From positions 1 through 27,314 of the IMG/VR virus record IMGVR_UViG_3300009285_001410: a stretch of DNA of 27,314 bases, one strand, 5' to 3'. The translations under genes and the position numbers were made by a program. The notes under the pieces were generated by a model. The model had not been told where the DNA came from. It saw only the letters and a program-made list of their open reading frames with translations, and ran no database searches. Positions 786 through 25,777 of this stretch are shown one piece after another. Source of the stretch: a virus. Each line of letters opens with the position of its first letter. Within the stretch, counting starts at the first letter, position 1.

Positions 786-1174
786 TTGCAGCGATCCTTC
801 CACATGACGTAAATGATCAAGTCGCCTGTGGGATGCGCGCCGCGAAGAGTGGTCTCCCGCTCGAATCCTAGGTGTTCATCAAACTGCCGTGCTTCTGAAT
901 TTCCTTCTCCTACCAATCCTGTCACCCTTCCAACCTTCGCCTGGTTGAAAGGATAGTCAAAACACACACGAAGATATTCCCTAGTGAGCCATCGCTTGGT
1001 TCCATCGGAGGCGACATGCATCAGCATGTTGACCCCGTTGAAATCACTGTAAGCGACGCCGGCAACCAAATGCCCTTTCTTCTCCCAGCCGATTCCAACC
1101 GCAGAACCGAAGTTGCCGAATTCGTTCGTTCGCCCCGCAACCCATTCCACTACCTGTTGCCCGGTGACGATCAA
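740..1174 (-). CDS. GNAT-like acetyltransferase-fold phage protein
   Basis: This 144-residue protein resembles the small GNAT-fold proteins often found among podovirus neck and tail genes. It has the long beta strands and final helix of that fold, with a segment near residues 96-110 (ARQFDEHLGFERETTLRG) like the end of N-acetyltransferase domains, where 'GFxxE' follows a helix. No strong acetyl-CoA-binding Q/RxxGxG/A motif is visible, so enzymatic activity is doubtful and a structural role is possible. The start is TTG, overlapping the stop of the upstream stabilisation gene (TTGA), with GGGG seven bases before it. Confidence 0.55.
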   Translation of the reverse strand: MIVTGQQVVEWVAGRTNEFGNFGSAVGIGWEKKGHLVAGVAYSDFNGVNMLMHVASDGTKRWLTREYLRVCFDYPFNQAKVGRVTGLVGEGNSEARQFDEHLGFERETTLRGAHPTGDLIIYVMWKDRCKWISQDFSKHYAKAA

Positions 1175-5340: not shown

Positions 5341-5816
5341 GTCACCATGCCCGTGGCGACAGAAGCCGTCGCGGTGCTCGCCGAGGTGGTAATGTAGATG
5401 CCAAGAGCAGTCGCACCCAGATTGCCAGCCGGCTGGCTGATGACCCTGCCGGTGCTCGCAAAGGCAAGACCGACGTTACTGCCAGCAGTGCAAGTCCCGG
5501 TACAGAGGATGTACAGGTTCCTGCCCTTCTTGGCGATCCATCCGAACTGACTCTGAGAGACCGTGTTTTGCACGAACCCGATGGAGTAGCCATTCGAGTT
5601 GATTGCGCTGCCGGTCAACATGGCAGTCGTAAGGGCAAAAGCGGTCCCGGCAGTATTGACGAGAACAGCATAGCCCGTGGTGAAAGTTCCAGAGCAGCAC
5701 ACGTACTGATGCTGCTGCTCGTCGGTTGCTTCAAGCGTGGTGCCAAGGGCGAACAGAGCGGTCGAATCGTCCGCAGTCAGGCTCGCACCGAGGAGACTGG
5801 AGGTAACAGTTGCCAT
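5310..5816 (-). CDS. Capsid decoration-like protein
   Basis: A 168-residue protein rich in Ala, Thr, Ser and Gly with alternating beta-strand pattern throughout, directly downstream of the major capsid gene. Size, position and composition fit capsid decoration or head-fibre proteins, though no diagnostic motif is visible. Several Cys residues occur in the middle (CCSGTF, CTGTCTAG), unusual for a virion protein and possibly disulphide or metal related. The ATG start has a strong AAGGAG upstream, as does the capsid gene, which suggests high expression. Confidence 0.6.
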   Translation of the reverse strand: MATVTSSLLGASLTADDSTALFALGTTLEATDEQQHQYVCCSGTFTTGYAVLVNTAGTAFALTTAMLTGSAINSNGYSIGFVQNTVSQSQFGWIAKKGRNLYILCTGTCTAGSNVGLAFASTGRVISQPAGNLGATALGIYITTSASTATASVATGMVTWPRSINQEA

Positions 5817-5827
5817 TTAATTTCTCC

Positions 5828-6862
5828 TTAAGCGATGAGCACGCCGCAGAACTGCGGGCCGCTGCTCGTCATGTTGCCGGCCCATCCGATGAGCTTCACG
5901 ATGGCGTCTTGGTTCACTGATTGACGCTCACCGCCGATGGGAACGAAGTTTCTCTCCTTGTGCGGACGCCAGAAAATGTAGTCCGTATTCAGAGCCCACA
6001 TATGAGCCGCTGTAGCGCCGCCCGTGGTCCCTGCCGTATTGACCGCATTGTTCACGCCGCCGCCCATCACGACAGTCGCTCCCATGCCGCCGCCGTAAAA
6101 AGCTAGCTCCGGACCGAAACCCGCACCGGCTTTTCCATCGCCCGAGGTCGTTTGAATCCTCTGAATGGCTTGCAACGAATTCACGTAGAACGCGAAGTAC
6201 GTCGCATCCCCGATCCACAGATCCGGCTTGTTCGACCCCCTGACACATCTCAGAGCTAGGGTCGTCATGTACTGCTGGATGTTCGCGGCAGAAACAGCAG
6301 CCCCTCCATCCGTCACTCCACGGTAGTACTGCGATCTCCAGAAGTTGTAAGTCGTTCTGGAAATCCCGCCGTAAGTGCCGGTAGTCGGATCATCCGGGAC
6401 CGCAAGCGCAAGACCGGTGACGTTCTTAGAGGCGTTGCCCGTACCGTCCTGGTAGAGGTCGTAATCCATCCGGTTCTGAAGCTGTGTTTCAGCAACCTTT
6501 ACTCTCCCTTCCATGAGGTCGATGATCTGTTCCTTGCCGGCGTTCTGAAGCATCTCAAGACCCGACATCGAAACAGCACCCGCGTACTGCTTGATGGAAA
6601 ACTCAGCCGAGCTGATCGGGCTGTTCGGGGCGATATTGATCACCTCGTAACCCGAGTAGCTGTTGGCGTTGATCGTGGCCGAGTCCGTATACATGACCTC
6701 TTCCATGATCACGTTTCCGCCGGAGAACGTTCTGACGTTCCCCTTTGCCTTCACCTTTCGGAGAAGGGCGTTGTTGTTCGTAACGTTGTCCGCCAGCTCG
6801 CCGGAACGATTCTGAATCGTGGTAGCGATGATGTCGGTGTACGAACTATTGGCAAAAGGCAT
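5828..6862 (-). CDS. Major capsid protein
   Basis: This 344-residue protein follows the scaffold gene and has the layout of HK97-fold capsid proteins. A helical N-terminus (SYTDIIATTIQNRSGELADN) is followed by an extended-loop-like beta region (FSGGNVIMEEVMY), then a helix with MEGRVKVAETQLQNRMDYDL. Further on come WIGDATYFAFYVNSL and a C-terminal strand region containing WRPHKERNFVPIGG. I believe it is the capsid subunit from size, order (portal, scaffold, capsid) and these features. AAGGAGC precedes the ATG, a good ribosome-binding site matching the need for hundreds of copies per virion. A gap of 20 bases separates it from the scaffold stop. Confidence 0.85.
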   Translation of the reverse strand: MPFANSSYTDIIATTIQNRSGELADNVTNNNALLRKVKAKGNVRTFSGGNVIMEEVMYTDSATINANSYSGYEVINIAPNSPISSAEFSIKQYAGAVSMSGLEMLQNAGKEQIIDLMEGRVKVAETQLQNRMDYDLYQDGTGNASKNVTGLALAVPDDPTTGTYGGISRTTYNFWRSQYYRGVTDGGAAVSAANIQQYMTTLALRCVRGSNKPDLWIGDATYFAFYVNSLQAIQRIQTTSGDGKAGAGFGPELAFYGGGMGATVVMGGGVNNAVNTAGTTGGATAAHMWALNTDYIFWRPHKERNFVPIGGERQSVNQDAIVKLIGWAGNMTSSGPQFCGVLIA

Positions 6863-15115: not shown

Positions 15116-15316
15116 CTACGTAGACTTCTTCACTCTGGCCTTCTGGTGCATCTCAACCAAGCGAACCGCCCTGAGACCCAGAGGTCTTTGACCAGATTTC
15201 CAATTGCTCACTTGCCGATCGCTGACTCCTAAGGTTTCGGCAATACGCTCAAGACCTATACCAATGTTCTGCAGTTCCTGGATCAGCCGCGCCCAGTATT
15301 CTTGTTCTTCTGTCAC
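15116..15316 (-). CDS. Small helix-turn-helix protein
   Basis: A 66-residue protein with a clear helix-turn-helix: ERIAETLGVSDRQVSNWKSG at about residues 23-42, as in Cro/CI-type or transposase-type DNA-binding domains ('iA..lgvs.rqVsnW..G'). The remainder is short flanking helices, with a basic C-terminus (KARVKKST). The start is GTG in a GTGA overlap with the hisF-like gene, preceded by AGGAAGG. It might regulate the sugar genes or the late genes; this is a guess from position. It marks the end of the sugar cassette. Confidence 0.6.
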   Translation of the reverse strand: MTEEQEYWARLIQELQNIGIGLERIAETLGVSDRQVSNWKSGQRPLGLRAVRLVEMHQKARVKKST

Positions 15317-16044
15317 AGCGCCTTCCTGATCTCCCCGAAAGTAAGCTTCCCGTAATGCAGGACGCTCGCCATGGCCACCGCATCAGCCTTTCCCTCCCCG
15401 AGTACCTCCCTGATGTGCTCGACGCAGCCAGCGCCTCCACAAGCCGTTACAGGCACCGAAACATGAGGGGCTATCGCTTTGACAAGCTCGACATCGAAGC
15501 CTTTCCGCGTCCCCTCCTGGTCAATGGACGTAAGGAGGATTTCCCCCGCCCCAAGCTCAACCGCTTCATGCGCCCATTCGACTGCATCCTTGCCCGTTTT
15601 TTCCCGGCCGTTATCGGTGAATGCTTCCCAGCCCACCTCCAGCCGCCTTTTGGCTTCGATTGATACAACAATGCATTGCGACCCGTAATAGTCCGCGCAT
15701 TCCTTGATAAGACCTGGATTACGGATAGCGGCGGTGTTGATTGCAACCTTGTCTGCACCAGACTCCAGTAGTCTTCGTACATCTGCTCGCGATTTGATAC
15801 CCCCGCCCACAGTAACGGGAATAAATACGTCCTCTGTTGTTTCTGCGAGTAAGGACCGGAGCTGATTTCTACCGTATAGCGTTGCAACGGTATCGATGTA
15901 GAGAAGTTCATCCGCACCTCCCTCTGCATACTTCCGTGCGAGGTCTGAAGGCTTCCCGACAACCCTGAGTCCCTCGAAATTGATTCCCTTGACGACGTTA
16001 GGCCCCTTGATATCCAAACGGGCGATTAGCCTAAGAAGGGACAC
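15313..16044 (-). CDS. hisF: HisF-like (beta/alpha)8-barrel protein of surface-sugar clusters
   Basis: A 243-residue TIM-barrel protein of the HisF family (imidazole glycerol phosphate synthase cyclase subunit). It shows [19 protein letters not shown] at the start, [20 protein letters not shown] (about 76-95) and [10 protein letters not shown] near residue 208, both phosphate-binding elements. D11 is conserved. The second catalytic position, Asp130 in the enzymes studied, is Glu here (VVSIEAKR, E130). No HisH glutaminase partner is in this window. In sugar clusters HisF-like proteins work with a PseA/WbpG-like amidotransferase, which this window has at 19632, so a role in forming an acetamidino group is inferred. 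The start is GTG, overlapping the NeuB-like gene by 14 bases. Confidence 0.75.
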
Positions 16045-16804
16045 GCCACGCCTTTCTCAACCCTTCCTCGCACGCCAATACTCTCTTTTCAGGGCTCCCC
16101 AAGGCGTACTCGACTTCCATAATTCCTAGCCTCATCGCCTTGAACTCCCTCGGCTCGATAGAGGCTTTGTGGTCCGGCCCTCGCTGCCTTCTATCAAGCG
16201 TCAGGTGCTTTTCAATGACCGTCGCCCCCCTCGCTACCGCCGCTATGGGAACCGTGATCCCAGATGTGTGATCCGACAACCCAACCGGATATCCGAACTT
16301 TCGCAGCGTATCCATGGCTCTGAGATTCACGTCCTCTAATCTGCATGGATAAGACGATGTGCAATGAAGCAGTGTGACGTTCGCCGCCAAGGTATCCAAA
16401 GCTCGTTCAATATCCTTTAAATCGCTCATCCCTGTAGATAGAATGACCGGAAGACCTGTTTGATAAGCCCCATAGAGAAGATCGAAGTTCCCCAAGCAAC
16501 CTGACGCAATCTTGATCCTTTGGACCTTGAGCTTTACCAGGAATTCCAAAGACTCGACATCGAACGGCGTGCACATGAATTCGATGCCGATGGCCTTGCA
16601 ATACGCCGCTATGTCAATCATCTGGATTTGAGATAGCTCCAGATGCTTAATCCTGTCGTCTTTCCAAAGCTTCCGACTGCTGAACAATTGAAACTTACAG
16701 GCATCTGCGCCGGCATCCTTTGCAGCGTCGGCAAGCTTTAGAGCGGTGCCGAACTCCCCGTTATGGCAAACCCCGGCTTCAGCAATCAGAAAGGTTCTAG
16801 ACAT
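16031..16804 (-). CDS. neuB: NeuB-like nonulosonic acid synthase, catalytic barrel only
   Basis: Sialic-acid-type synthases condense phosphoenolpyruvate with an N-acetylated hexosamine to make a nine-carbon acid. This 257-residue protein has the family's barrel: FLIAEAGVCHNGEFGTALKL at the start, DACKFQLF, IEFMCTPFD, RIKIASGCLGNFDLL, VILSTGM, CTSSYPCRLEDVNL, and VIEKHLTLDRRQRGPDHKAS. The last holds H200 and H212, matching the metal-binding His residues of NeuB. Cellular enzymes have about 340 residues and a C-terminal antifreeze-like (SAF) domain. Here the frame stops right after the barrel, so that domain is absent. This domain contributes to the active site in the solved enzymes, so its loss is notable. 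The ATG overlaps the neuC stop by eight bases. The exact sugar (sialic, legionaminic or other) cannot be told. Confidence 0.85.
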   Translation of the reverse strand: MSRTFLIAEAGVCHNGEFGTALKLADAAKDAGADACKFQLFSSRKLWKDDRIKHLELSQIQMIDIAAYCKAIGIEFMCTPFDVESLEFLVKLKVQRIKIASGCLGNFDLLYGAYQTGLPVILSTGMSDLKDIERALDTLAANVTLLHCTSSYPCRLEDVNLRAMDTLRKFGYPVGLSDHTSGITVPIAAVARGATVIEKHLTLDRRQRGPDHKASIEPREFKAMRLGIMEVEYALGSPEKRVLACEEGLRKAWRVPS

Positions 16805-17609
16805 TTGTGTACTTCAGGATTGTGGCGATTCGTTGACTGGCGTTCCCATCTCCCCATGGGATTGTTCTTCCCTTCTGTCTCTTGCCGATCATGCGCGTTT
16901 TGATCCCAAGCTCTGGAGCTTCGTAGAGCATGGCTGAAGAGTTACCAATGAACTCTTCGCAGTTCGCCATGACGCTTAGAAATTGCGCGTGGCTGAACTC
17001 CAAAGTACCAGGGATGCGCTCGCTTCCCCGGTCTGGATTCGGCTTGATCCAGATAGCACTGCGCCCCGCAATCGCTTCCTCTACTGCCTTGAGGTCTACG
17101 GTGTCGTCTATCGTCTCCGGGTAATACGCCACCAAGACGTAAGGCTTCTGGATGCATGGAGTCATCTTCCGCCACGGCCCATGTCTTATGTAGTCCACGC
17201 CAGGATTACCGACAAGATGGACGTTCTTCATCCCCATATGAGTAAGGCGGGCCATTGCAGATGTTGAAGTGACGAAGTGAAGAGACGCCATCCTAGAAAT
17301 ACAGTCCCTCATGGCGTCGTCGTAGGAGCCCTCGGTTACATCCCCTCCCGCTATATGAGCAATTGGCACTCGCGCCAAATGACAAGCTGTAGCCGCAGCA
17401 AGGATTTCGTACCTATCCCCAAGCATCAAAACGACATCAGGACGGCCTTCCGCAATCTGGCTCTTGGTCCATAGAAACGCATCATCGAATCTGCACCCCT
17501 TCAGACTCAGCCGATTTACCGAGAAGAACGGATCTTCGGACAGGACTTTGGACGGCCACTCCAACAGCCCTTCATCCGCTCTAGACCCAATGACGATGCA
17601 GACTTTCAT
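16797..17609 (-). CDS. neuC: NeuC/LegG-like UDP-sugar 2-epimerase (hydrolysing), short form
   Basis: Hydrolysing 2-epimerases turn UDP-GlcNAc or its diamino derivative into free ManNAc-type sugars, the substrate of NeuB. The 270 residues start with VCIVIGSRADEG, then have VVLMLGDRYEILAAATACHL (59-78), IAHIAGGDVTEGSYDDAMRD (83-102), HLVGNPGVDYI, and NSSAMLYEAPELGIKT, all characteristic. The family norm is about 370-390 residues; here the first domain is shortened (GDR at 64-66, normally nearer 85-95) and other loops are short. The usual 'RHxItKM' element reads RDCISRM, with the His missing. ATG start in an ATGA overlap with the NeuA-like gene. Confidence 0.85.
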   Translation of the reverse strand: MKVCIVIGSRADEGLLEWPSKVLSEDPFFSVNRLSLKGCRFDDAFLWTKSQIAEGRPDVVLMLGDRYEILAAATACHLARVPIAHIAGGDVTEGSYDDAMRDCISRMASLHFVTSTSAMARLTHMGMKNVHLVGNPGVDYIRHGPWRKMTPCIQKPYVLVAYYPETIDDTVDLKAVEEAIAGRSAIWIKPNPDRGSERIPGTLEFSHAQFLSVMANCEEFIGNSSAMLYEAPELGIKTRMIGKRQKGRTIPWGDGNASQRIATILKYTNV

Positions 17610-18106
17610 TTCAGAAAATCAGCCTCTTCGTTGATATCCAAACTCCTCTCTTCGGGCATGACGTACTTCATCAATCCGGCATGGCTGAAGTCGTGCTTTG
17701 CGATCCACTCTGCTTTAGCAACATAGACCGCTCCGTTTGTCCTCCATGTCCCATTGCTGTATGAGATACAACCGTCCCCCATCTGGGCCCGCTCGATACA
17801 GGCGTCGATATCCTCTGCTGTGCGCAGCGGGCTGGTAGGCTGGAGCAGGACTACCCAATCGTGCGGAGCCTGCTCCAAGTGGTAGCGCAGCACGTCTTCA
17901 CTGGCTGCGTCGTCTGTGCATAGCTCCGGTGGGCGGTCTTGGTCAAGAGACACCTTTACATTGTCGATATACTTAGATGCAGCGGCATGCTCTACGCTCC
18001 ACATGACCAGCGGCTTTCCTCGGTAGTCGCGGAAGTTCTTCCAAGGCACGCGCTTGGAGCCTGAGCGCGCAGGAATCACTGCCAATACTGTTTTACCGTT
18101 GATCAT
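17606..18106 (-). CDS. neuA: NeuA-like CMP-nonulosonate cytidylyltransferase, short form
   Basis: It would activate a nonulosonic acid with CTP. The 166 residues show the nucleotide-binding motif VLAVIPARSGSKRVPWKNF (7-25), then GKPLVMWS, LLQPTSPLRTAEDID (87-101), and SLDINEEADF (155-164), whose Asp residues match the metal-binding site. Cellular enzymes are about 220-230 residues. A visible deletion lies after VKVSLDQ (51-57): the usual segment between 'VSTDdeeIa' and 'RPxEL' is missing, so RPPEL follows directly. The first ATG overlaps the end of the glycosyltransferase gene by 14 bases. It is followed by NeuC and NeuB, the classic order for this pathway. Confidence 0.85.
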   Translation of the reverse strand: MINGKTVLAVIPARSGSKRVPWKNFRDYRGKPLVMWSVEHAAASKYIDNVKVSLDQDRPPELCTDDAASEDVLRYHLEQAPHDWVVLLQPTSPLRTAEDIDACIERAQMGDGCISYSNGTWRTNGAVYVAKAEWIAKHDFSHAGLMKYVMPEERSLDINEEADFLK

Positions 18107-19244
18107 ATTGCTCTAGGAACTTCGCTCCGATCCGCATCCTGATCTCCCCATGCAGGGGCTTGGCGTTGTAGGCACTCATCGAACGCGGGAATAGCTTCCA
18201 GAATTCGCGCTGCCTTATATACTCCCAATCGTCGTAGAACGGATATCCGCCACAACGTACTTCCATCTCCCCAACTACGTCCCTGATCTCCTCGGGCGTG
18301 TTATCGACCAGCGTTATCCCGGCCTCTGTGAATTTCTCGCTCGACATGAACTGCCCCGCCCCGCTCTCGTAGATTTCCTTCAGCGACATTCTTTTTCCAT
18401 CTTTGTAGTGGTGCTTCCAGATCGCCAGAGAGCGTTTGTTGAAGGTCGATAGGTATTCAATCGGAACGTAGTTCACGTAGCAGACAGGTCTGCGAAAGAT
18501 CACTGGAATTGCATCTATCCCCGTCCCGTTCGATATCGCGAACTCGCACTTGGCTCCCAAGTACACATCCATGAACTCGGAGCGCATGCCGTTGGTGGCG
18601 TAGTCAATGATCCACCTTGACTCTGCTCGCTTGGCAACCTTCGCGCCCATCCTGAAGACGTAATAACCGCGCTTGACAAGCTCCTCGGCCACAAGCGGGT
18701 AAGTGTCAATGTCCGAGTCTCGGTAGCCGTGATAAGTAAGATCAGGCAGGTAAGCAGAATCCCGCACGATGAGACATACCCACTTCGCATTTTCTGGAAT
18801 GCCCCACTCTGCCAACGTCTTGCGGCCTAATCTTTCCTCGGCCTCGGTAAACTCTAGATGAGGCCCCTGCTTTTCAAAGAGGTTGTGAATGTCGCGGTCC
18901 AACTGTTCCGAATTACATACATGCTTCTCCCATCCGCGAAACATGCGATTGACGAGAATGAGGAGCCTTGTAAATCTCGTGGGGTCTACCAAGATTTCTC
19001 GCCCGATCATCTTCGCCAGTTGCTTGTTCGATACCTTGTTTCTGTGCGTCCAGATGTCGAAGGACTTGGGATGTAAGCCCGCGTCCTTCTCGCAGAGATA
19101 GCATTCTGTATTGCCTGCCAGGTGGCCTATGCGCTCGCTCCAGAATTCTCCGAAGCGGATAAGAACACCGCAGCGAGCGAGCAGGCGGACTGAACCGACG
19201 ATCAGCAACGCAAGTGGAATGAGGAGGAGACGGACGAACTTCAA
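18093..19244 (-). CDS. TIGR04372-type glycosyltransferase
   Basis: A 383-residue protein beginning with a basic/hydrophobic segment (FVRLLLIPLALLIVGSVRLL), a membrane anchor or signal-like helix. It then shows RIGHLAGNTECYLCEKDAGL (38-57), CLIVRDSAYL, YHGYRDSDIDTYPLVAEEL, MGAKVAK, and EFMDVYLGAKCEFAISNGTG followed by DAIPVIFRRPVCYVNYVP. These match what I know of the TIGR04372 family of putative glycosyltransferases from polysaccharide clusters. It is the only clear transferase in the cassette and so the best candidate to use the CMP- or NDP-sugar. The start is TTG in a TTGA overlap with the HTH-like gene; its ribosome-binding site is weak. Confidence 0.75.
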   Translation of the reverse strand: MKFVRLLLIPLALLIVGSVRLLARCGVLIRFGEFWSERIGHLAGNTECYLCEKDAGLHPKSFDIWTHRNKVSNKQLAKMIGREILVDPTRFTRLLILVNRMFRGWEKHVCNSEQLDRDIHNLFEKQGPHLEFTEAEERLGRKTLAEWGIPENAKWVCLIVRDSAYLPDLTYHGYRDSDIDTYPLVAEELVKRGYYVFRMGAKVAKRAESRWIIDYATNGMRSEFMDVYLGAKCEFAISNGTGIDAIPVIFRRPVCYVNYVPIEYLSTFNKRSLAIWKHHYKDGKRMSLKEIYESGAGQFMSSEKFTEAGITLVDNTPEEIRDVVGEMEVRCGGYPFYDDWEYIRQREFWKLFPRSMSAYNAKPLHGEIRMRIGAKFLEQYDQR

Positions 19245-19600
19245 TGGGACGGGCCTTTACTCTCCCACATCGCAATAAGACGCTCCTGATTGCTCTCTAT
19301 CCGATCCATTTGCGTCTGAAGGTCTTTCATCACGTCTATGGCCCCAACGGTGGCCACGAATCTCGTCTTTTCACCAATCGCTTTAAGCCTCTCTTGCTTT
19401 TGGGAAATTTCTACACTCACCCTTTCCTTTGCGGCTAATACCTCAGGCTCATTCAGCAACATTCTCGGCACGCCCCTAGCTCCAATGGGACCATCGTGAA
19501 CTGTAATTCCAAGTCTTTCAAAATTTCCCCTACCAATTCCACGAGGATTTAGACCAAGAATATTCGCGGCTTCTTTCGCATCTATGAACTTCATCTTCAT
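19241..19600 (-). CDS. Small HTH-like protein with coiled coil
   Basis: This 119-residue protein starts MKMKFIDAKEAANILGLNPR, the beginning of a MerR/excisionase-like helix-turn-helix ('fid.keAA.iLGl...'). It continues with GNFERLGITVHDG and PRMLLNEPEV and ends in helices with a heptad-like pattern (ISQKQERLKAIGEKTR and LQTQMDRIESNQERL). I do not know a named family. It stands out as a non-enzyme within the sugar genes. It has its own strong ribosome-binding site (GGAGAG, seven bases) and a 31-base gap upstream, unlike its coupled neighbours. It may be a later insertion or a regulator. Confidence 0.55.
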   Translation of the reverse strand: MKMKFIDAKEAANILGLNPRGIGRGNFERLGITVHDGPIGARGVPRMLLNEPEVLAAKERVSVEISQKQERLKAIGEKTRFVATVGAIDVMKDLQTQMDRIESNQERLIAMWESKGPSH

Positions 19601-19631
19601 TGCATTCTCTCCAAAGTAGTTTGGATTACAA

Positions 19632-20708
19632 TTAAGACACCACGCACTTCAACTTGTCGCCATCCCACACTTCCGGTGACTTCCAACTCTCAATGATCAG
19701 CAGCGCCTGCGCTTCTGTAATGCCCATGTAGGCGCAGGCTTCGGAGAAATACTTCTTCGGAAACTCGTCGTCGAAGCGGTGAACTAGCGCTACGCCTTCC
19801 TCGCGCGTGATCTTGCCGTCGCGGATTTCGTGCGCCGTGTCACTCGTACAACGCCCGATGCCAAACTTGATATATGCCAAGTAGTAATGCAAACCGTCGA
19901 GTCTGTCGTCGAGACTTGCATACTTGGAATACGTGCCCTCAGTTCGCTCTGGATTAGGGCTAAATCCTGTATGCTCGGAGCAGTAGTAGAAATTCTCCTG
20001 CGGGTCCCACTTTTTGTAGTAGCTGAAGAAGTGGATTTCCCCTTCGAAGCTTTGCGGCCCCCGGAATGGCTCAAGGTCTTTTTGGCTGATGCCATGCTCT
20101 CTCCAGAACTCCGGCGGCTTACCGGAAAAGTAATGAGCGTCGTGGTCCTCAATCTTTCGCATTGCTCGCGGGTCTTTCACCGCTCCACCGTATTCAGCTT
20201 CTCCATCCTCCCCGTACATGATCAGAGGAACGCGATACCTGACCGCCATCTGTAAGGGGAAATTCGTTTGCCCATAGATGAATGGTTGAAACGGATCGCC
20301 CATGTGCTCAAAGGCCAAGCGCGTGAGCTTGCTGGTAGTAACACCGTTCGGCCTGCCCTGGATCACGTCGAAACCTGAAGCGACAAAGGCATCGAGGTTC
20401 TTCCGTCCTATCTCAGTAGGCAGAAGCGGAGCCCACGTCACACAAAGCGGCGTCATGCCGTACTTGGTCTTCAGTTGATGAGCGACAAACCCGCCGTCCT
20501 TCCCGCCGCTACAGGGAACAATGACATCGAATTCGCCATTACCCTTACGGTGCTTATCGCAGAGTGCGATCAACTCGCGCTCCCTTGCGGCCCAATCCGT
20601 ATAAGCCTTGCGCTCTGCGAATCGGCAGGCAGAGCAAACGCCCTCGTCATCGAATGTAATTCTCGGCCGCATGGAGCTGATCGTGCATCTGGTGCAGAAG
20701 CGGATCAC
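19632..20708 (-). CDS. N-acetyl sugar amidotransferase, PseA/WbpG-like
   Basis: The family (PseA, WbpG) uses a PP-loop ATPase fold to place an amidino nitrogen on an N-acetyl sugar, as in acetamidino forms of pseudaminic acid or ManNAc-type uronic acid. The 358 residues fit the usual full length. Cysteines at 5, 8, 25 and 28 (CTRC and CSAC) form the family's N-terminal pair of CxxC motifs. The PP-loop is PCSGGKDGG at 65-73 (usual SGGKDS, with Gly for the final Ser). Later parts include MYGEDGEAEYGG (164-175) and the C-terminal AYIKFGIGRCTSD. It pairs naturally with the hisF-like gene at 15313. Start GTG in a GTGA overlap with the upstream gene, which argues it is co-translated with the thiamine-diphosphate enzyme. 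Confidence 0.85.
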   Translation of the reverse strand: MIRFCTRCTISSMRPRITFDDEGVCSACRFAERKAYTDWAARERELIALCDKHRKGNGEFDVIVPCSGGKDGGFVAHQLKTKYGMTPLCVTWAPLLPTEIGRKNLDAFVASGFDVIQGRPNGVTTSKLTRLAFEHMGDPFQPFIYGQTNFPLQMAVRYRVPLIMYGEDGEAEYGGAVKDPRAMRKIEDHDAHYFSGKPPEFWREHGISQKDLEPFRGPQSFEGEIHFFSYYKKWDPQENFYYCSEHTGFSPNPERTEGTYSKYASLDDRLDGLHYYLAYIKFGIGRCTSDTAHEIRDGKITREEGVALVHRFDDEFPKKYFSEACAYMGITEAQALLIIESWKSPEVWDGDKLKCVVS

Positions 20709-21223
20709 TTGCGGTACTCCGATGCGTACTCAATAAGCAACGTGCTTGCCTCACGGTTGAGAGCGTCTCTATATGCCGGCATGATCGATTCAACGTGAGT
20801 CAACGGCTGAACGTGGACCGTGCGCAGCATCTTCGCAAAAGCTTCTGTGTGATCCTGGCAATGCTGCGGCCCTGGATTCAGGGGCTCTGTACTTCCTACC
20901 GCCGTCCTGATGATCACCTTCGGTCTATAGCTAGACATCAGCGGAAGCTTGTCCAAGTGATTGACTAGTTGGTTGGCGGCTAGGAGAAGAAAGTCGAAGC
21001 GCGGATACACGCTCACGACTAACTGACCTGTCAGAGCAAGGCCAGTAGAAAAGCCCATCTGGAAGTCCTCAGCGACAGGCATTTCTATACGCTGCTCCAT
21101 CGGCACACCGGAGAACGAGGGATGCATCGCCTGCCCGTCGTAGCGGATGGATTGCCCGAGGAACAACGCCCCCTGCTTGGCAAGGAACGTCATGGCGTTG
21201 GTTAGTTCTAGAAAGTAATCCAC
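20705..21223 (-). CDS. Thiamine-diphosphate enzyme, E1 beta-like subunit (Pyr domain only)
   Basis: This 172-residue protein matches the first domain of E1 beta subunits and transketolase-like enzymes, which binds the pyrimidine ring of thiamine diphosphate. It has LFLGQSIRYDGQAMHP, RIEMPVAEDFQMGFSTGLAL (45-64; E52 matches the conserved Glu that activates the cofactor) and FDFLLLAANQLVNHLDKLP. Normal E1 beta chains have about 325 residues with a C-terminal domain, absent here. The GTG at 21223 is chosen because it begins the family-like sequence and overlaps the alpha-like gene by 16 bases. An in-frame upstream start at 21340 would lie deep inside that gene. Substrate unknown. Confidence 0.75.
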   Translation of the reverse strand: MDYFLELTNAMTFLAKQGALFLGQSIRYDGQAMHPSFSGVPMEQRIEMPVAEDFQMGFSTGLALTGQLVVSVYPRFDFLLLAANQLVNHLDKLPLMSSYRPKVIIRTAVGSTEPLNPGPQHCQDHTEAFAKMLRTVHVQPLTHVESIMPAYRDALNREASTLLIEYASEYRK

Positions 21224-21792
21224 TTGCCTATCCCGCAATGCGGGTGAGTGCGCTCGTATGCGTAGCGCAGAACCTTCGGCGGCGTGAATGGCTCCTGCTC
21301 CAACCCCCAAGCCTCTTGCGTAGGTGTATTCGTAGAGCACCCGTTATCCTCAATCACAAACTCTATCGGTAAATTGTGACCCTCTGCATACTCGTATGCC
21401 TCGCAATAAGACCCTGTGCAAGCCGCCATATCTCCTACAAAGCACCAGACGCGATCACTCGTCCCCTTCAACCCCGCCGCTACGCCGCAGGCAATCGATG
21501 AGATCCCGCCAACAATTGCGCTGGTAAGGAACCGATGCTCCGGAAAGTTCACGTTCATGCTAGGCCCGGTGAGAATGTGGGCCTTGAGTTTTGCCGGAGG
21601 CACGCCGTGCAAGAGCGCGTGATAATGCGAGCGCCAAGTCGAAAAGACCCAATCCGTTCTCTTGATGTCCTTGAAGATTTCTATCAACTGCTCCTCATTC
21701 CCACCGGATAGATGCACCGGCCCATGTATCTCTCCGCGCTCGAAACACTTCGCAATGTCCTCCTCAAAAGCGATCAATTCTTCAGCCGTCAC
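21208..21792 (-). CDS. Thiamine-diphosphate enzyme, E1 alpha-like subunit (PP domain)
   Basis: A 194-residue protein like the E1 alpha chain of 2-oxoacid dehydrogenases, which binds the diphosphate of thiamine diphosphate. It shows HGPVHLSGGNEEQLIEIF, VFSTWRSHYHALLHGV (49-64, the 'STYRgHgh.la.Gv' motif), AIVGGISSIACGVAAGLK, and the cofactor motif from FVGDMAACTGSY (118-129) to N150 in EDNGCSTNTPT. GDM replaces the common GDG. E1 alpha chains have about 320-360 residues; this one ends soon after the cofactor motif. With the 172-residue partner it would make a minimal PP + Pyr enzyme. No E2 or E3 gene is present, so a simple decarboxylase or carboligase is more likely than a dehydrogenase complex. 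GTG start, 11-base overlap with the SIS gene. Confidence 0.8.
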   Translation of the reverse strand: MTAEELIAFEEDIAKCFERGEIHGPVHLSGGNEEQLIEIFKDIKRTDWVFSTWRSHYHALLHGVPPAKLKAHILTGPSMNVNFPEHRFLTSAIVGGISSIACGVAAGLKGTSDRVWCFVGDMAACTGSYCEAYEYAEGHNLPIEFVIEDNGCSTNTPTQEAWGLEQEPFTPPKVLRYAYERTHPHCGIGKWITF

Positions 21793-22198
21793 GCAACGCC
21801 CTCATCAAGTCGTGTCCAAGCTTTACCTGCGCCTCTTCAGATGCCTGCATGTTCATCGTTTTTAGATAATCGGTAATCAACACGCACTCCATGCCGATAA
21901 GCTTCGCTGCCGCTATGGCGTTGAGAATGTTCTTCGATGTCCCGCTACCGGACAGAGCGATCAACAAATCCCCAGGCTCTCCATGAACCGCGAGCCAGTC
22001 GGCAAAGACCAATTCGTAATCCCGGTCGTTCGCTATCCTGGTTAACGAGGAAGGATTCAGCGTGTGCGCCCTGACCCCTACACTCTCCAAGTCGTTCTGG
22101 ATGTGCATTGCGTTGGCGAAACTTCCGCCATTGCCCACGAGGTAGACCCGTTTTGCTTTTCTAATAGCTTCAACGATTGAGATAGTCGAGTAGCTCAT
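21782..22198 (-). CDS. SIS-domain sugar isomerase, GmhA-like, short form
   Basis: GmhA converts sedoheptulose 7-phosphate to D-glycero-D-manno-heptose 7-phosphate. The 138 residues hold VYLVGNGGSFANAMHIQNDL (18-37), like the GmhA motif 'GNGGSaadA.H...dl', and LIALSGSGTSKNILNAIAAA (79-98), the SIS phosphate-binding motif. Family members have about 190 residues, so the N-terminal helix and C-terminal part are cut short and the catalytic His of GmhA is not clearly matched. The neighbouring kinase and nucleotidyltransferase of the heptose route support the heptose reading; other phosphosugar isomerases remain possible. The ATG overlaps the kinase gene by 29 bases. Confidence 0.75.
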   Translation of the reverse strand: MSYSTISIVEAIRKAKRVYLVGNGGSFANAMHIQNDLESVGVRAHTLNPSSLTRIANDRDYELVFADWLAVHGEPGDLLIALSGSGTSKNILNAIAAAKLIGMECVLITDYLKTMNMQASEEAQVKLGHDLMRALRDG

Positions 22199-23003
22199 TT
22201 TTGGTTATTGGCTTTCTATGCCCAACGGTCTGCGCCTTCAGGGCTCCTGCCGCATTTCCAATGCGCATAAGATCGGCTAGTGAAGCTTCCTCGGCCATGC
22301 AGGCCGTCACCGCGAAGAACGCATCCCCAGCCCCCATCGTATCGACCACCCGATCTGTAAACGCCGGAACCTTGACAAATCCCTCTTTCTCCGACCAGCC
22401 GATAGACCCATCCCTCCCGAGCGTCACAACGACCATTCCGGCAATCCTTGCCAAGCTGTCCAAAGACAGCCGGATATCACCATCCCTGTTCTGGGTCGCC
22501 AGCCGCGCCTCGGGCTCGTCCACGCACAGGTAATCGGCATTGGGGTATTTGGTCGCTAGGTTGAAACCGTAATTGCCGGAATTGGTCTGCACGTTCACCG
22601 CCAAGAACTTGGACTCCCTGCAAAGCTTCTCCACCACCGCAGGGGTCATCATCCCGTGGCCATAATCAGTGACGATCACCGCATCGTAGCTTTCAAGAGC
22701 AGGCCACATCATCAGCGCATGATCGACATTACCCCCGTAGACCTCGAATAGCTTTCTGTGATGCGACGCCTCAAGGTATCGCTCTTTACGAACCTCACAC
22801 GTCGAGAAGATGTGAACGCCGGCAACGAAATCGCGCGCGTGAGCAGCAGCCGCAACAACCCCACCCTCGAATACCTCGGTGTCCTGGTGCTCAATACAGA
22901 CAATGGCTTCCTTTAGCGGCCTCCCCAAAAGCTTCCCGTAGTGGTACACATCCTGAATGCGCTCCCCAACGAACAACACCCGCTTGTTAGAATCAGGCAG
23001 CAA
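22170..23003 (-). CDS. PfkB-family sugar kinase, HldE N-terminal-domain-like
   Basis: HldE's kinase domain phosphorylates heptose 7-phosphate at carbon 1. This 277-residue protein has the ribokinase-fold signatures: RVLFVGERIQDVYHYG at the start, GGVVAAAAHARDF (47-59), VIVTDYGHGMMT (109-120), NADYLCVDEPEA, VVVTLGRDGS, and VVDTMGAGDAFFA (219-231) with the GAGD anion-hole motif and catalytic D227. In cellular HldE it is fused ahead of the nucleotidyltransferase; here the two are separate genes in reversed order. The TTG at 23003 is used because GAGGG lies upstream and the frame overlaps the previous gene by 11 bases. A GTG at 22979 is an alternative that would trim the protein by eight residues. 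Confidence 0.8.
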   Translation of the reverse strand: MLPDSNKRVLFVGERIQDVYHYGKLLGRPLKEAIVCIEHQDTEVFEGGVVAAAAHARDFVAGVHIFSTCEVRKERYLEASHHRKLFEVYGGNVDHALMMWPALESYDAVIVTDYGHGMMTPAVVEKLCRESKFLAVNVQTNSGNYGFNLATKYPNADYLCVDEPEARLATQNRDGDIRLSLDSLARIAGMVVVTLGRDGSIGWSEKEGFVKVPAFTDRVVDTMGAGDAFFAVTACMAEEASLADLMRIGNAAGALKAQTVGHRKPITKNELLDYLNR

Positions 23004-23400
23004 GACGCATCACCCTCAATATCGCGTCGGTCGCGCTTAACTTTGCGGACGTGGTGAACCTCAGTTCCGCGCCGACCTCCCGGCATGCTCTTTCCACTTC
23101 CTCTGTCCACCTGTCCCCGTTTGCGTAGTCTCTGCCCTTAACGAAGATCGCCGGCCGCACCAGCCTGATAGCCTCCATCGCAGAGGCTACGGGTACGATC
23201 TCATCCACGCACTCCAGCTCTATGAGCAAATCGTGCCGGTCCCACCACTTATAGATGGGTCTACCGGGTCCCTTGTTCACATGCTCATCCAGGGTAAGAG
23301 ACACAACGAGCTTGTCGCCCATAGCCCTCGCTTCTTTGAGATGCCTAACGTGCCCGACGTGGAGCAGATCGAAGCAGCCGTTGGCCAAGACTACTTTCAC
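22993..23400 (-). CDS. HldE C-terminal-domain-like nucleotidyltransferase
   Basis: A 135-residue cytidylyltransferase-fold protein that would add a nucleotide to heptose 1-phosphate. It shows VVLANGCFDLLHVGHVRHLK with the HVGH motif at 14-17, GPGRPIYKWWDRHDLLIELE (44-63), the 'RP......R...l..l..VD' element, FVKGRDY (86-92) and TTSAKLSATDAI, close to the ending of RfaE2-type enzymes (SxxSTSxII). Length fits a stand-alone domain. Whether the activated sugar is ADP-, CDP- or GDP-linked cannot be read here. GTG start, GTGA overlap with the radical SAM gene. Confidence 0.85.
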   Translation of the reverse strand: MKVVLANGCFDLLHVGHVRHLKEARAMGDKLVVSLTLDEHVNKGPGRPIYKWWDRHDLLIELECVDEIVPVASAMEAIRLVRPAIFVKGRDYANGDRWTEEVERACREVGAELRFTTSAKLSATDAILRVMRLAA

Positions 23401-24545
23401 AGGAACCCCAAATGCGGCGGCGGTGGAGTCGTCGGCAAAGCCTTGCCGGCATGAACGTAATCGAAGAGAACCTTGTTGGTGTTCGTCTGTAGACAGTTCG
23501 GGCCGCAGCGAGATCTTGGATCAAATTCATCGGATGCGAGGTAGCGAATGACCTCCCAATACCTGTCGCTCTGCCAAATATCCTTGAATCGTTGCTCGCA
23601 GATGTTCCCGATGTGGAAAGCCTTATAGCGCTCGTTGAAGAGAAACCCGCAGGGAGCTATCAATCCGTTCCCCGACATCTGCAATATGAAGGGAGGGCCG
23701 TAACACTTGGAATACTCCCGCTTTCCGTCATTGGATATCCGGCTCCACTTCACCACTACCCGGAATTCGTCATCCCCCATTTCTTCTATCGTGCGGAATG
23801 TTTCGTGCAGCTTCTCGTATTTCGTGTAATCGATCCCGAGCTGCCCATCCACATCATCGGCGCAGTGCTTCACGATTGCGTAATCAGGCCGCAGCTTGGA
23901 TGCTAGTTCTGCGAACGGGATTAGCTCAGGCTCGTACTTCGGCTCGCACACAAGCTGCATGTTGATCGTGACTCCGAGTTTGTCGCGGCGCTTGATCTCC
24001 ATTGCGTCCTTGATGTTCTGCACCACCACATCGAACCACTCCGGTTTCACGCCCATGATGCGGGAATAGCCTTCCCTAGTCCCACCGGAGAAGTTGAACC
24101 GCAGGTAGGACAGATGCGGCAGGATGCGCTCCAGCATCTGGCGCTTCAGAACCTTGCCGTTGGTCCCGATGCCGATTTGCAGTCCTACTTTAGCCCCGTG
24201 CTCGATGGACTCGGCGTAGAACGGAACGATGCTCGATTCCCCGTCGCTGATAAGCGAAACGCCCTTTACCCCGATCTCGGCTGCATCAGAGAGGAACTGA
24301 AGCGCGATCTCTCGGGTAATTTCTTGACCCTGGCTCGCCTGCATCTGGGCGTAGCAGAACTCGCAGGCGTAATTACATTTGCGCGTCCAAGCCACGTCCA
24401 TGGTGATGGGCGCAATCTTCTCTCCCCTTTGCCATGCGGCGATGCGCTCCGGGTACCAGCCAACCTTTGTTGAATCCAATTGGTAATCGTAGATGCTTGG
24501 CTTTTCTACGATGTGATCGACAAGTTCCGGTAATGAGCTGCTCAT
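23397..24545 (-). CDS. Radical SAM protein with SPASM-like C-terminus
   Basis: A 382-residue radical SAM enzyme. The iron-sulphur motif CNYACEFC has Cys 57, 61 and 64 (CxxxCxxC), followed by YAQ. SLISDGESSIVPFY (97-110) is the glycine/SAM-contact region. Cys at 281, 299, 316, 347 and 351 suggest one or two further clusters, as in SPASM proteins, with SGNGLIAPCGFLF and HIGNICEQRFKDIW resembling the SPASM motif. No B12-binding domain is seen. No peptide precursor is near, so a sugar or nucleotide substrate is more likely than a RiPP; radical SAM enzymes that epimerise, dehydrate or deaminate sugars are known. The substrate is not known. ATG in an ATGA overlap; the GTG of the next gene overlaps its stop. 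Confidence 0.8.
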   Translation of the reverse strand: MSSSLPELVDHIVEKPSIYDYQLDSTKVGWYPERIAAWQRGEKIAPITMDVAWTRKCNYACEFCYAQMQASQGQEITREIALQFLSDAAEIGVKGVSLISDGESSIVPFYAESIEHGAKVGLQIGIGTNGKVLKRQMLERILPHLSYLRFNFSGGTREGYSRIMGVKPEWFDVVVQNIKDAMEIKRRDKLGVTINMQLVCEPKYEPELIPFAELASKLRPDYAIVKHCADDVDGQLGIDYTKYEKLHETFRTIEEMGDDEFRVVVKWSRISNDGKREYSKCYGPPFILQMSGNGLIAPCGFLFNERYKAFHIGNICEQRFKDIWQSDRYWEVIRYLASDEFDPRSRCGPNCLQTNTNKVLFDYVHAGKALPTTPPPPHLGFL

Positions 24546-24727
24546 AGACGATCCCTTTCGGCTGGAGTCATTTTGATTCTGAGTTTTGAGTCGTCGGCCA
24601 TGCGATCTTTAAAAACCCGACAGTCCAGCCCTGTAAGGGCGCGTAGGTGCTTCTCGAAATCGAGCAAAGCCTTGCCTTGGGCTTCGTTCGACACGCCTTC
24701 ATCGAACTTGACAATGACCTTGATCAT
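24542..24727 (-). CDS. Small protein of the sugar cassette, function unknown
   Basis: A 61-residue protein: MIKVIVKFDEGVSNEAQGKA, a helix with LLDFEKHLRALTGLDCRVF, then DDSKLRIKMTPAERDRL. It looks like a small alpha/beta protein with strand, helix and strand. I do not recognise a family. It is tightly coupled by ATGA overlaps to the aminotransferase gene before it and to the radical SAM gene after it, so it is probably translated. It may help one of them or be an independent accessory protein. Confidence 0.55.
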   Translation of the reverse strand: MIKVIVKFDEGVSNEAQGKALLDFEKHLRALTGLDCRVFKDRMADDSKLRIKMTPAERDRL

Positions 24728-25335
24728 TTGAAAGCCGGATGCTTGGAAAGATCCGGGTAGTCCTCTGAGCCGCCGATGTCGGCATTGACCTTCGGCAGAT
24801 GGTAGAGCCGCAGGAGCAGCGTGGCGGCCACAGATGGAATCATCAGGCAGTGGTGCCCGATGAGATCGAAGGTATCGTCGGCAGGATCAACGCCCTCGGT
24901 GCGACCGTCGAAGCGCATCCTGTGGAACCACGCATCTGCCTCGGGGTTGTCGTGAAGTATTGCTCCACCTTGCTCCGCACCGAGAATCTTGCGGGCCGCG
25001 AAACTCACGCACTGGAACCGGCCGGCGCGATACATGCCGGAAGTCAAGCGGCAGGCTGAGTCCCAAATAGGATAAGGGGCGAGCATGTATTCCCCTTTCC
25101 ATTCTTCATCTGCAAATTGCACCCAGCCGCCTGCATTAAGGATGGCGCATGGGACCGAAACATAAGTGCGCTTAGGAAGCTCGATGAAGCCACTGCACCC
25201 CTCGTCTTGGTCGAAGTGCCATTGCACAGCAAGCATGATCGCCGCCGTGCAACTGTTTACCGCCACCGCGAACGGCGCTCCGGTGTACTCGCACAGGGCC
25301 TTTTCGAAATCTTCTGTGACCTTATAGGGGTTCAA
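24724..25335 (-). CDS. Short DegT/DnrJ/EryC1/StrS-type aminotransferase
   Basis: Family members use PLP to put an amino group on keto-sugars. Counting from the TTG at 25335, this 203-residue protein shows NPYKVTEDFEKALCEYTGAP (2-21), VAVNSCTAAIMLAVQ (24-38; the 'v.Sgt.Al.lal' motif), PKRTYVSVPCAIL (54-66, like 'vp..Tf.at..ai'), WDSACRL with D92 at the PLP-ring Asp, and CVSFAARKILGAEQGGAI with K116 as the Schiff-base Lys. Cellular enzymes have about 370-390 residues; the C-terminal domain is missing. Two TTG starts are possible: 25341 lies only one base after AGGAGG, while 25335 lies seven bases after it and is preferred. It overlaps the NeuD-like gene. Confidence 0.75.
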   Translation of the reverse strand: MNPYKVTEDFEKALCEYTGAPFAVAVNSCTAAIMLAVQWHFDQDEGCSGFIELPKRTYVSVPCAILNAGGWVQFADEEWKGEYMLAPYPIWDSACRLTSGMYRAGRFQCVSFAARKILGAEQGGAILHDNPEADAWFHRMRFDGRTEGVDPADDTFDLIGHHCLMIPSVAATLLLRLYHLPKVNADIGGSEDYPDLSKHPAFK

Positions 25336-25777
25336 TCTCAAGCCTCCTCGCCTTCACAAGCGACCAAGCAGGAATCCTCGCACCGGGTGCTACGCCAACC
25401 CCTACCCCGATCAGCGCACCTTCCCCGACGTGGACATTCCCGCAGAGATGAGCCCCCGGAGCGATATGGGCGTAGTCCTTAACCAAGCAATCGTGATCGA
25501 CCGAGGCGCAGGTATTCACGATGCAATGCCTGCCTATCCGCGCTCCGGGTTGAATCACAGCTCCAGCCATGACTACCGTACCTTCCCCGATCACGACATC
25601 CCTTGCCACATAAGCTCTCGGGTGAATCTGCGCAGGAGCGAATCTCCACTCTTCTTTCTTCAACCGCTCTACCTCACACTTCCGGGATCGGTTATCACCT
25701 ACCGCAACAATCGCCCCGTTCCAGTCATCAACGAAATCCCTCAAGACCTTCGCATGGCCTCCATTGCCGACCATCAT
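25322..25777 (-). CDS. NeuD/PglD-like sugar acetyltransferase, short form
   Basis: These enzymes put acetyl groups on nonulosonic acids or on UDP-amino-sugars. The 151 residues open with MMVGNGGHAKVLRDF, the start of the N-terminal domain of NeuD/PglD ('GaGGHAkVv.d'), and continue with left-handed beta-helix repeats from about residue 49: IHPRAYVARDVVIGEGTVVM, AVIQPGARIG, and NTCASVDHDCLVKDYAHIAP with the likely catalytic H95. LCGNVHVGEGALIGVGVGVA follows. The family has about 200-215 residues, so the N-terminal domain is trimmed. The ATG at 25777 overlaps the nuclease stop (ATGA). The frame stays open upstream to 25933, but the extra residues are unlike the family. Confidence 0.8.
   Translation of the reverse strand: MMVGNGGHAKVLRDFVDDWNGAIVAVGDNRSRKCEVERLKKEEWRFAPAQIHPRAYVARDVVIGEGTVVMAGAVIQPGARIGRHCIVNTCASVDHDCLVKDYAHIAPGAHLCGNVHVGEGALIGVGVGVAPGARIPAWSLVKARRLEIEPL

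Follow-up and report, generated by a model that had tools for sequence, protein, structure and literature searches.

A compact phage-borne cassette of nonulosonate- and heptose-type genes in a small tailed phage, with a Maf-family gene beside the capsid gene

The window analysed here is the whole of IMG/VR virus record IMGVR_UViG_3300009285_001410, a stretch of 27,314 bases that is classed as linear and is therefore probably a fragment. Read along the minus strand, it holds a methyltransferase fragment, a zinc-ribbon-like protein, NinB and a DUF559 nuclease, then a sugar-gene cassette (25777-15313), and then a helix-turn-helix gene, terminase, portal, capsid and tail genes. The cassette forms a single minus-strand run of 16 open reading frames (ORFs) with no large gaps and with overlaps between most genes. 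An initial annotation had counted fifteen genes and proposed that the phage carries them to make a nonulosonic acid and a heptose-type sugar, acting as one pathway. Pfam and NCBIfam families, together with the phage head genes, support such a cassette, and the families then named (NeuA, NeuB, NeuC and NeuD homologues, DegT, PseA, HisF, GmhA, HldE, a thiamine-diphosphate (ThDP) enzyme, a radical S-adenosylmethionine (SAM) enzyme and TIGR04372) proved right. The single pathway gives way to two separable modules, each of which is found without the other in other phage loci.

Gene families of the cassette

The nonulosonate-type genes (module A), with the two genes that lie among them, are as follows (lengths in amino acids, aa).

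25322..25777, minus strand: NeuD/PglD-like hexapeptide acetyltransferase, ~151 aa, lacking most of the PglD_N domain (Hexapep 8e-16; TIGR03570 147.8 bits, cut-off 160.8)
24724..25341, minus strand: compact DegT/DnrJ/EryC1 sugar 4-aminotransferase (mini-DegT), 205 aa (PF01041 1.2e-16, 61.4 bits, cut-off 19.8)
19632..20708, minus strand: WbuX/PseA-type N-acetyl sugar amidotransferase (TIGR03573 321.4 bits, cut-off 203.2; PDB 8wex 5e-91)
19241..19600, minus strand: p119, no known family and no family match; the same slot in phage contig L195 holds a PseB-like dehydratase
18093..19244, minus strand: TIGR04372 glycosyltransferase with a hydrophobic N-terminus (201.5 bits, cut-off 45)
17606..18106, minus strand: compact NeuA/PseF CMP-sugar synthetase, 166 aa (PF02348 3e-14, 53.8 bits, cut-off 22.6; PseF 61 against 206)
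16797..17609, minus strand: compact NeuC-type 2-epimerase, 270 aa (PF02350 2e-37, over cut-off; TIGR03568 179.7 bits, cut-off 235.9)
16031..16804, minus strand: NeuB-type synthase without SAF domain, 257 aa (PF03102 3e-75, 253 bits, cut-off 22.1; TIGR03569 290.6, cut-off 399.65)
15313..16044, minus strand: HisF/WbuZ-like amidotransferase partner (hisF 283 bits, cut-off 294.55; WbuZ 273, cut-off 299.7)

Many cassette genes do not reach the length of their family profiles, and the matches to NeuA, NeuB, NeuC, NeuD, GmhA, HldE, HisF and PseC/LegC stay below the equivalog or subfamily cut-offs. Active-site motifs are found in the cassette enzymes on inspection, at residues that we take to be the catalytic ones. 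The mini-DegT falls below the PseC/LegC equivalog cut-offs (37.9 against 423.5 and 28.6 against 420). Its AlphaFold2 model, built from 12 sequences, reaches a predicted local distance difference test (pLDDT) score of 93.3; Foldseek matches it to ArnB, PseC and perosamine synthase, and VIA-align superposes it on sugar aminotransferases with Z 19.7 and a root-mean-square deviation of 3.0 over 195 aligned residues. D94 and K118, presumably the aspartate and the pyridoxal-phosphate lysine, are invariant in the 12-row mini-DegT alignment. The PseA/WbuX-type protein carries SGGKDG (PP-loop), CTRC and CSAC motifs, and the 19-residue Kyte-Doolittle mean of the TIGR04372 protein is 2.2 at residue 4. 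NeuA misses the NCBIfam cut-offs. The best PDB match of NeuC is 5xvs, a diacetylbacillosamine 2-epimerase (hydrolyzing), and a viral scan with NeuC gave a single relative. NeuB matches 6ncs and 1xuu and has LSDHT at 176 and EKHLT at 198, whose histidines we take to bind the metal; Pfam gives no SAF match in this protein. The NeuD gene is taken to start at 25777 (family searches used 25780, one codon early). Family scans and a homologue search of the window found no UDP-N-acetylglucosamine (UDP-GlcNAc) 4,6-dehydratase.

The remaining genes make up the heptose-type set (module B).

24542..24727, minus strand: p61, a small conserved protein of no known family that precedes the radical SAM gene (alignment of 13)
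23397..24545, minus strand: radical SAM/SPASM enzyme, 382 aa (PF04055 2e-11, PF13186 1e-7; CxxxCxxC at 57-64)
22993..23400, minus strand: HldE-C-like nucleotidyltransferase (PF01467; TIGR02199 97.8 bits, cut-off 181.5; HVGH motif)
22170..23003, minus strand: HldE-N/PfkB-like sugar kinase (PF00294 9e-21)
21782..22198, minus strand: GmhA-like SIS isomerase, 138 aa (PF13580; TIGR00441 68.5 bits, cut-off 209; GmhA structure matches)
21208..21792, minus strand: compact ThDP enzyme, PP-domain subunit (alpha), 194 aa (PF00676 (E1) 9e-14; phrog_34187; 19-row alignment)
20705..21226, minus strand: compact ThDP enzyme, Pyr-domain subunit (beta), ~173 aa (second half of phrog_34187)

The best NCBIfam matches of the SIS protein, kinase and nucleotidyltransferase are ADP-heptose families, all below their cut-offs. 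Three GmhB-like queries found no match in the window, and HldD was likewise not found there. The Transket_pyr-type match of ThDP beta is weak (E 0.001, below cut-off), and its gene probably starts at 21226, within the end of alpha, rather than at 21340. We considered whether the ThDP pair could be a phosphonopyruvate or sulfopyruvate decarboxylase and set this aside when alpha matched Pfam E1 instead. There are two candidate roles: the pair might supply a ketose phosphate in a transketolase-like manner, or it might attach a two-carbon branch, by analogy with the E1-like pairs that do so in avilamycin-type sugars. The radical SAM protein has no NCBIfam equivalog match at cut-off. Among its 14 viral relatives, 12 are 64-81% identical, one 62% and one 25%. 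The two small ORFs at 24542-24727 (p61) and 19241-19600 (p119) are the only ones of the cassette left to no known family. In 13 copies of p61, Q17, E25, L28, V38, K40, D45, D46, R50, M53, T54 and R58 are invariant; its model (pLDDT 80) has no fold match at E 0.001 or better, the best (0.15, 4-oxalocrotonate tautomerases) not being significant.

Recurrence, compactness and selection

Viral scans with ThDP alpha (217 of 219 stretches fetched, 80 kept), PseA (2 of 4), radical SAM (14 of 19) and NeuB (71 of 83) supplied loci that were compared with the window proteins by tblastn; a scan of species genomes with the ThDP alignment added 76 of 168 stretches, giving 73 loci, and a viral scan with the DegT alignment at least 556 relatives, of which the best 80 were kept (L261 and L153 being the same contig). 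The initial annotation had proposed looking for the gene set in other phages, and two contigs carry nearly the same one. The first, L020, is a 45.5 kb record in which each of the 16 ORFs except p119 has a homologue; its ends overlap by 391 bases with 378 identities, so that it is probably a complete genome. The second, L195, is a contig of 29.6 kb from a Sulfuricaulis bin. It bears portal, terminase and capsid genes and a near-full cassette in which the SIS gene is missing, the HldE-type kinase is another one and the nucleotidyltransferase is only distantly related (27%). Gene order differs in these contigs, and the set stays together nonetheless. Because the two independent assemblies bear nearly the same genes, the cassette is neither a chance arrangement nor a lone chimera. 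A misbinned bacterial island is ruled out, as the window, L020 and L195 each bear phage head genes. No intact block in a bacterial chromosome away from phage genes, which the initial annotation had named as counter-evidence, appeared in the one genome scan with ThDP alpha (73 loci), where the only near-full copy is L195 itself.

That annotation had also seen no dehydratase or GmhB and suggested that host enzymes fill in. The absences stand for the window, and TIGR03589 finds no dehydratase in the 45.5 kb L020 record either; L195 does encode one, between PseA and the glycosyltransferase (TIGR03589 272 bits, cut-off 408; Polysacc_synt_2 223 bits, over cut-off). Since neither this record nor L020, a probably complete genome, has the enzyme, the host likely supplies it, and host supply of steps is in general probable.

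The modules part company elsewhere. Module B genes (kinase, SIS, ThDP, p61, radical SAM, nucleotidyltransferase) occur in other phage loci without nonulosonate genes, and DegT-PseA-HisF-NeuB occur in others without module B. The mini-DegT is immediately preceded by a PseB-like dehydratase in L126, L129, L133, L138, L146, L148 and L153. Among the best 80 of the at least 556 DegT loci, a dehydratase homologue lies within 600 bases of the mini-DegT in 17, and PseA (16), HisF (14), NeuB (18) and a GNAT homologue (15) lie within 6 kb; most of these 80 loci have none of the five. The presence of the dehydratase in L195, and directly before the mini-DegT in other phages, suggests a diamino nonulosonic acid with an acetamidino group as the cassette product. 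The window-type cassette looks legionaminic in type because NeuD and NeuC are present. The L126-type loci look like pseudaminic acid cassettes, since L126 has a GNAT acetyltransferase and a PseI over cut-off (387.5 against 340.25). By the logic of the known pathways, the PseB-like dehydratase of L195 beside a NeuC-type epimerase would suit the 8-epi isomer. For the glutaminase partner, which is missing from the window, L138 has a HisH-like protein (99.7 bits, cut-off 105.4).

The pseudaminic-type cassette recurs among viruses, whole or in part (PseB-like, mini-DegT, NeuA, PseA, HisF, GNAT, PseI), in L126, L129, L133, L146, L148, most of L242-L261 and L275; in L126 and L133 it ends beside a gene read as the terminase small subunit. 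The mini-DegT (~205 aa) itself belongs to a very large viral family of at least 556 relatives, whose best 80 loci mostly have no nonulosonate gene nearby.

Module B has a wider range. Among 16 radical SAM loci examined, which include L020 and L195, 13 contain p61 and 14 contain ThDP alpha. A single fused gene encodes the kinase and the nucleotidyltransferase in phages L090 (6062-7411) and L093 (5874-7178) and in nanoarchaeal L208 (6805-8346) and L231 (1436-2977); in phages and nanoarchaea alike, the nucleotidyltransferase-kinase order is opposite to what we take to be that of E. coli HldE. ThDP genes lie near genes read as GmhA, HldE, GmhB or HldD homologues in Prochlorococcus L220 and archaeal L201 and L224, with all four in L220. 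In nanoarchaeal L208 and L231 they lie near the fused genes and radical SAM genes, the radical SAM protein of L231 being 47% identical to that of the window. Several contigs of Nanoarchaeota, Pacearchaeota and Woesearchaeota (within L201-L241) hold compact two-part ThDP enzymes with radical SAM genes. Judged by such neighbourhoods, the ThDP enzyme appears to be tied to heptose chemistry in part of its range. The link is partial because 50 of 80 viral ThDP loci and 34 of 73 genome loci show no GmhA, kinase/HldE, nucleotidyltransferase or GmhB. In LR756501.1, a 735 kb uncultured phage, a compact ThDP alpha (43.9%) adjoins a radical SAM protein (23.8%) at 322608-324252.

The small size of the enzymes is itself recurrent. 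The 12 viral mini-DegT relatives measured span 201-225 aa (one contig entering twice, as L020 and L084), viral ThDP alpha, two proteins of 402 aa apart, spans 182-232 aa, and the NeuB proteins of viruses are either 220-282 or 313-368 aa long. Phages are not alone in this compactness, as ThDP alpha of similar size occurs on cell-labelled contigs. A phage-only origin of the compact ThDP enzyme is ruled out, with compact alpha on contigs labelled SAR11, Prochlorococcus, DPANN archaea, Chloroflexi and Patescibacteria.

Codon comparisons took in 15 of the 16 cassette ORFs, p119 being left out. Third codon positions were the most different in 38 of 38 comparisons (35 of the 15 cassette genes, 2 of the PF01973 gene described below and 1 of the capsid gene). 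The ratio of nonsynonymous to synonymous divergence (dN/dS) was 0.09-0.34 in the 16 comparisons with computable dS, which was saturated in the other 22; for p61, SIS, ThDP alpha, NeuA, NeuC, NeuB and HisF the codon-position pattern alone therefore speaks. The 15 ORFs thus look to be under purifying selection, and this pattern, with no internal stops, rules out a decaying cassette.

The PF01973 gene beside the capsid gene

Three genes of the head region bear on where the sugar might go.

5828..6862, minus strand: major capsid protein (phrog_9953 1e-91; 45% to Mx8)
5310..5816, minus strand: Ser/Thr-rich protein between the capsid and PF01973 genes (26% Ser+Thr, 15% in the capsid protein)
4447..5340, minus strand: PF01973 (MptE-like / Maf_flag10) protein, 297 aa, second gene after the major capsid gene (61.6 bits, cut-off 34.6)

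According to one source, pfam01973 is the Maf_flag10 domain, Cst-II sialyltransferase-like, of Maf enzymes that add nonulosonic acids to flagellin (PMC11339370). The gene adjoins the capsid gene also in L020, L195, L085 and L098. It scores over cut-off in 6 of 35 nonulosonate (NulO)-type records, namely these four plus L153 and L257, which are otherwise unlike them; L097, also of NulO type, lacks it and is a contig with no capsid gene. Among 40 other viral records, 8 of them with a NeuB-family gene but no such cassette, it is over cut-off in one (L006, a module B phage) and matches at E 0.001 in three. A tblastn search of the phages collection with the PF01973 protein found no match.

The slot after the capsid gene can be inspected in five cassette carriers (the window, L020, L195, L085 and L098), and PF01973 is in all five, L085 being counted as a carrier although of module A it shows PseA alone. 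Relatives came from a capsid scan of 80 contigs. A first set of 48 records (45 scan contigs of >11 kb and 3 named phages) has PF01973 in 20 and NeuB in none; the other 33 contigs, all <11 kb, have PF01973 in 10 and NeuB in one (L364), and the remaining two are the L085 and L020 contigs, counted as carriers. With the slot defined as 1400 bases after the capsid gene, 65 of the 78 contigs hold it, 29 with PF01973, and 13 are cut short of it, the carrier L364 among them; adding the 3 named phages, PF01973 is present in 29 of 68 relatives that hold the slot and show no cassette, on contigs that are fragments and whose missing parts may carry NeuB. The idea that PF01973 accompanies the cassette alone was rejected on these 29. 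The other four carriers have copies 64, 63, 55 and 34% identical to that of the window, and 20 relatives have copies of 26-42%; nine of ten further relatives lie at 27-37%. The PF01973 frames of the NeuB-less Mx8-like relatives L417-L446 are often longer, up to an 829 aa open frame, perhaps with extra domains.

Nonulosonate genes also lie within the head and tail row of two relatives. On contig L339, the same as L085, PseA follows the PF01973 gene by 1.6 kb and sits between an SU10-adaptor-like gene and the next tail gene; L364 has PseA-NeuC-NeuB-HisF directly upstream of its portal gene. Given the position of PF01973 and these NulO genes, the virion is a reasonable sugar target; the Ser/Thr-rich protein is a possible glycan acceptor, as is the major capsid protein.

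The portal and capsid proteins are 28-45% identical to those of Myxococcus phages Mx8/Mx9, Stenotrophomonas phage BUCT555 and Bradyrhizobium phage ppBjS10J-1. A Methyltransf_11/DUF268-like methyltransferase (11961-12677, minus strand) directly follows the terminase large subunit, and a phrog_4470 acyl-CoA N-acyltransferase (740-1174, minus strand) lies in the tail region, where GNAT genes are similarly placed in BUCT555 and ppBjS10J-1. An Rfam search of the window gave 0 matches, and a promoter and terminator scan gave fewer sites than in shuffles.

Proposed route, its rivals and related systems

By family, module A (NeuD, DegT, PseA, NeuA, NeuC, NeuB, HisF) would yield an activated diamino nonulosonic acid linked to cytidine monophosphate (CMP). 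A UDP-GlcNAc 4,6-dehydratase, which L195 encodes for itself, would provide the 4-keto sugar; the mini-DegT would add the 4-amino group and NeuD acetylate it, NeuC would hydrolyse and 2-epimerise, NeuB would condense the sugar with phosphoenolpyruvate, NeuA would form the CMP-sugar, and PseA with HisF would convert an N-acetyl substituent to acetamidino. The enzymes of module B (SIS, kinase, nucleotidyltransferase, two-part ThDP enzyme, radical SAM enzyme, p61) would give a heptose-type sugar bound to a nucleoside diphosphate (NDP), which the ThDP and radical SAM enzymes may supply or alter. In the way that Maf acts on flagellin, the PF01973 protein might then attach the nonulosonic acid to proteins of the virion, with TIGR04372 perhaps adding the second sugar.

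The bacterial legionaminic, 8-epilegionaminic and pseudaminic pathways share with this route the DegT, NeuD, NeuC, NeuB and NeuA homologues for successive steps, and the acetamidino step by PseA/WbuX with HisF. They differ from it in that the enzymes here are compact, NeuB has no SAF domain, the record has no dehydratase or HisH and the context is a phage; L195 has a mixed set, with a PseB-like dehydratase and a NeuC-type epimerase. From the ADP-heptose pathway (GmhA, HldE, GmhB, HldD) the window has GmhA-, HldE-N- and HldE-C-like proteins, whereas GmhB and HldD matches are missing and a ThDP enzyme, a radical SAM enzyme and p61 are added. The PF01973/Maf_flag10 domain is shared with the flagellin nonulosonate transferases, but Maf has three domains and the window protein is a lone 297 aa domain beside capsid genes, not flagellin.

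Phage-borne surface-sugar genes are a known kind. Acinetobacter phages reportedly encode O-acetyltransferases acting on host nonulosonate capsules (PMC6586298); those modify a host sugar, while here the sugar itself would be made. Giant viruses make rare sugars for the virion, such as viosamine in mimivirus, a likewise virus-encoded rare sugar, though of a eukaryotic virus and with other sugars. In a review of marine phage genes, pseI is named among the table abbreviations (PMC6359870), again a phage-linked nonulosonate synthase, but one gene and not a pathway. The lipopolysaccharide (LPS)-type clusters of cyanophages S-SM2 and P-TIM68 share the compact ThDP enzyme, kinase, nucleotidyltransferase and SIS (phosphoheptose) isomerase; there the ThDP subunits are one gene, an alcohol dehydrogenase and epimerases are present, and no radical SAM or NulO gene is annotated in the stretches viewed. 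Judged by listings of the open-access literature, with subscription papers and preprints outside them, no phage-borne nonulosonic acid pathway has been reported, nor was a near-complete, compact nonulosonate route with a Maf-family gene beside capsid genes met.

The initial annotation had left virion and host surface as targets, with DNA less likely. DNA glycosylation was dropped, as no base-modifying partner was seen among the window proteins scanned (part of the ORFs), and DNA as acceptor found no support. The virion has become likelier than that annotation could argue, because a Maf-type gene lies beside the capsid genes, and the host surface stays a strong rival. We put at about even odds the reading that CMP-nonulosonate is made by the phage itself and used to glycosylate its virion. 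Somewhat below even stands its fuller form, in which a small tailed phage makes an acetamidino-bearing sugar of the sialic acid family, perhaps with a heptose derivative, by a miniaturised pathway, and a Maf-type transferase, widespread in the lineage while the pathway is held by some members, puts it on the capsid.

Several observations weigh against virion glycosylation. The pterin kinase MptE belongs to PF01973 too, the window protein consists of this one domain with a single family match, and phmmer hits to solved structures are weak (MptE 0.04; 5mu5, presumably a Maf structure, 0.23). Of the other 31 NulO-type records, mostly Pse-type, 2 have PF01973 over cut-off, so that those phages would rely on a different transferase or target. 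The gene is present in some two-fifths of the NeuB-less capsid relatives, so that it needs no nonulosonate pathway on the same contig. The contrast of 5/5 carriers with 29/68 relatives does favour a link between gene and cassette (one-sided Fisher p 0.0185), but the test ignores shared descent, and all carriers belong to one capsid lineage. Identity does not cleanly separate carriers either, as L336, a 10 kb contig with no cassette gene visible, has a 64%-identical copy. HisH, dehydratase and GmhB are not found in the window, and two histidines conserved in longer NeuC copies are changed throughout the compact NeuC clade. The membrane-anchored look of TIGR04372, finally, suits a lipid-linked host glycan.

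This last point leads to the host envelope, a serious though less probable destination. Membrane-anchored TIGR04372 could, in the course of infection, place CMP-nonulosonate and NDP-heptose sugars on LPS or capsule and so mask receptors, sparing progeny from loss on debris and excluding rival phages. TIGR04372 homologues occur in all three near-complete cassettes (the window, L020 and L195), Pse-type cassettes mostly have no PF01973, and the same families of ThDP enzyme, kinase, nucleotidyltransferase and isomerase are found in the LPS-type clusters of cyanophages (PMC3037559, presumably Sullivan et al. 2010). Such a target fits less well with a cassette set between ninB/nuclease and terminase, with the two relatives that keep NulO genes inside the head and tail row, and with the window proteins scanned, among which no flippase, polymerase or lipid-linking family turned up.

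That the compact enzymes were repurposed for other amino sugars or small molecules, for instance in counter-defence, we consider unlikely. Most of the enzymes miss curated cut-offs, and the SAF-less NeuB and the altered NeuC histidines could be read in this way, as could the radical SAM protein, with no equivalog at cut-off, and the unmatched p61; however, the enzymes together fit the successive steps of a nonulosonate route, and the combination is seen again in other phages along with PseB-like and PseI-type genes, the L126 PseI being over cut-off. Least credible by far is neutral cargo that fills a headful-packaged genome. The cyanophage clusters have been noted with the choice between function and 'stuffer DNA' left open (PMC3037559), but here every cassette gene compared (15 of 16 ORFs) has the codon pattern of purifying selection, and the set is kept together in different gene orders.

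Surface-sugar genes of phages are usually read as scattered auxiliary genes of unclear use. Here a near-complete, compact route to a relative of sialic acid recurs across phages under selection, in two flavours, a NeuC/NeuD type and a PseB/GNAT/PseI type, and one phage lineage sets a Maf-family gene beside its capsid genes. If the proposed chemistry is true, phages would make sialic-acid mimics, small enzymes would be gained for chemoenzymatic synthesis, and the role of phage LPS-type clusters would be open to direct test by virion mass spectrometry.

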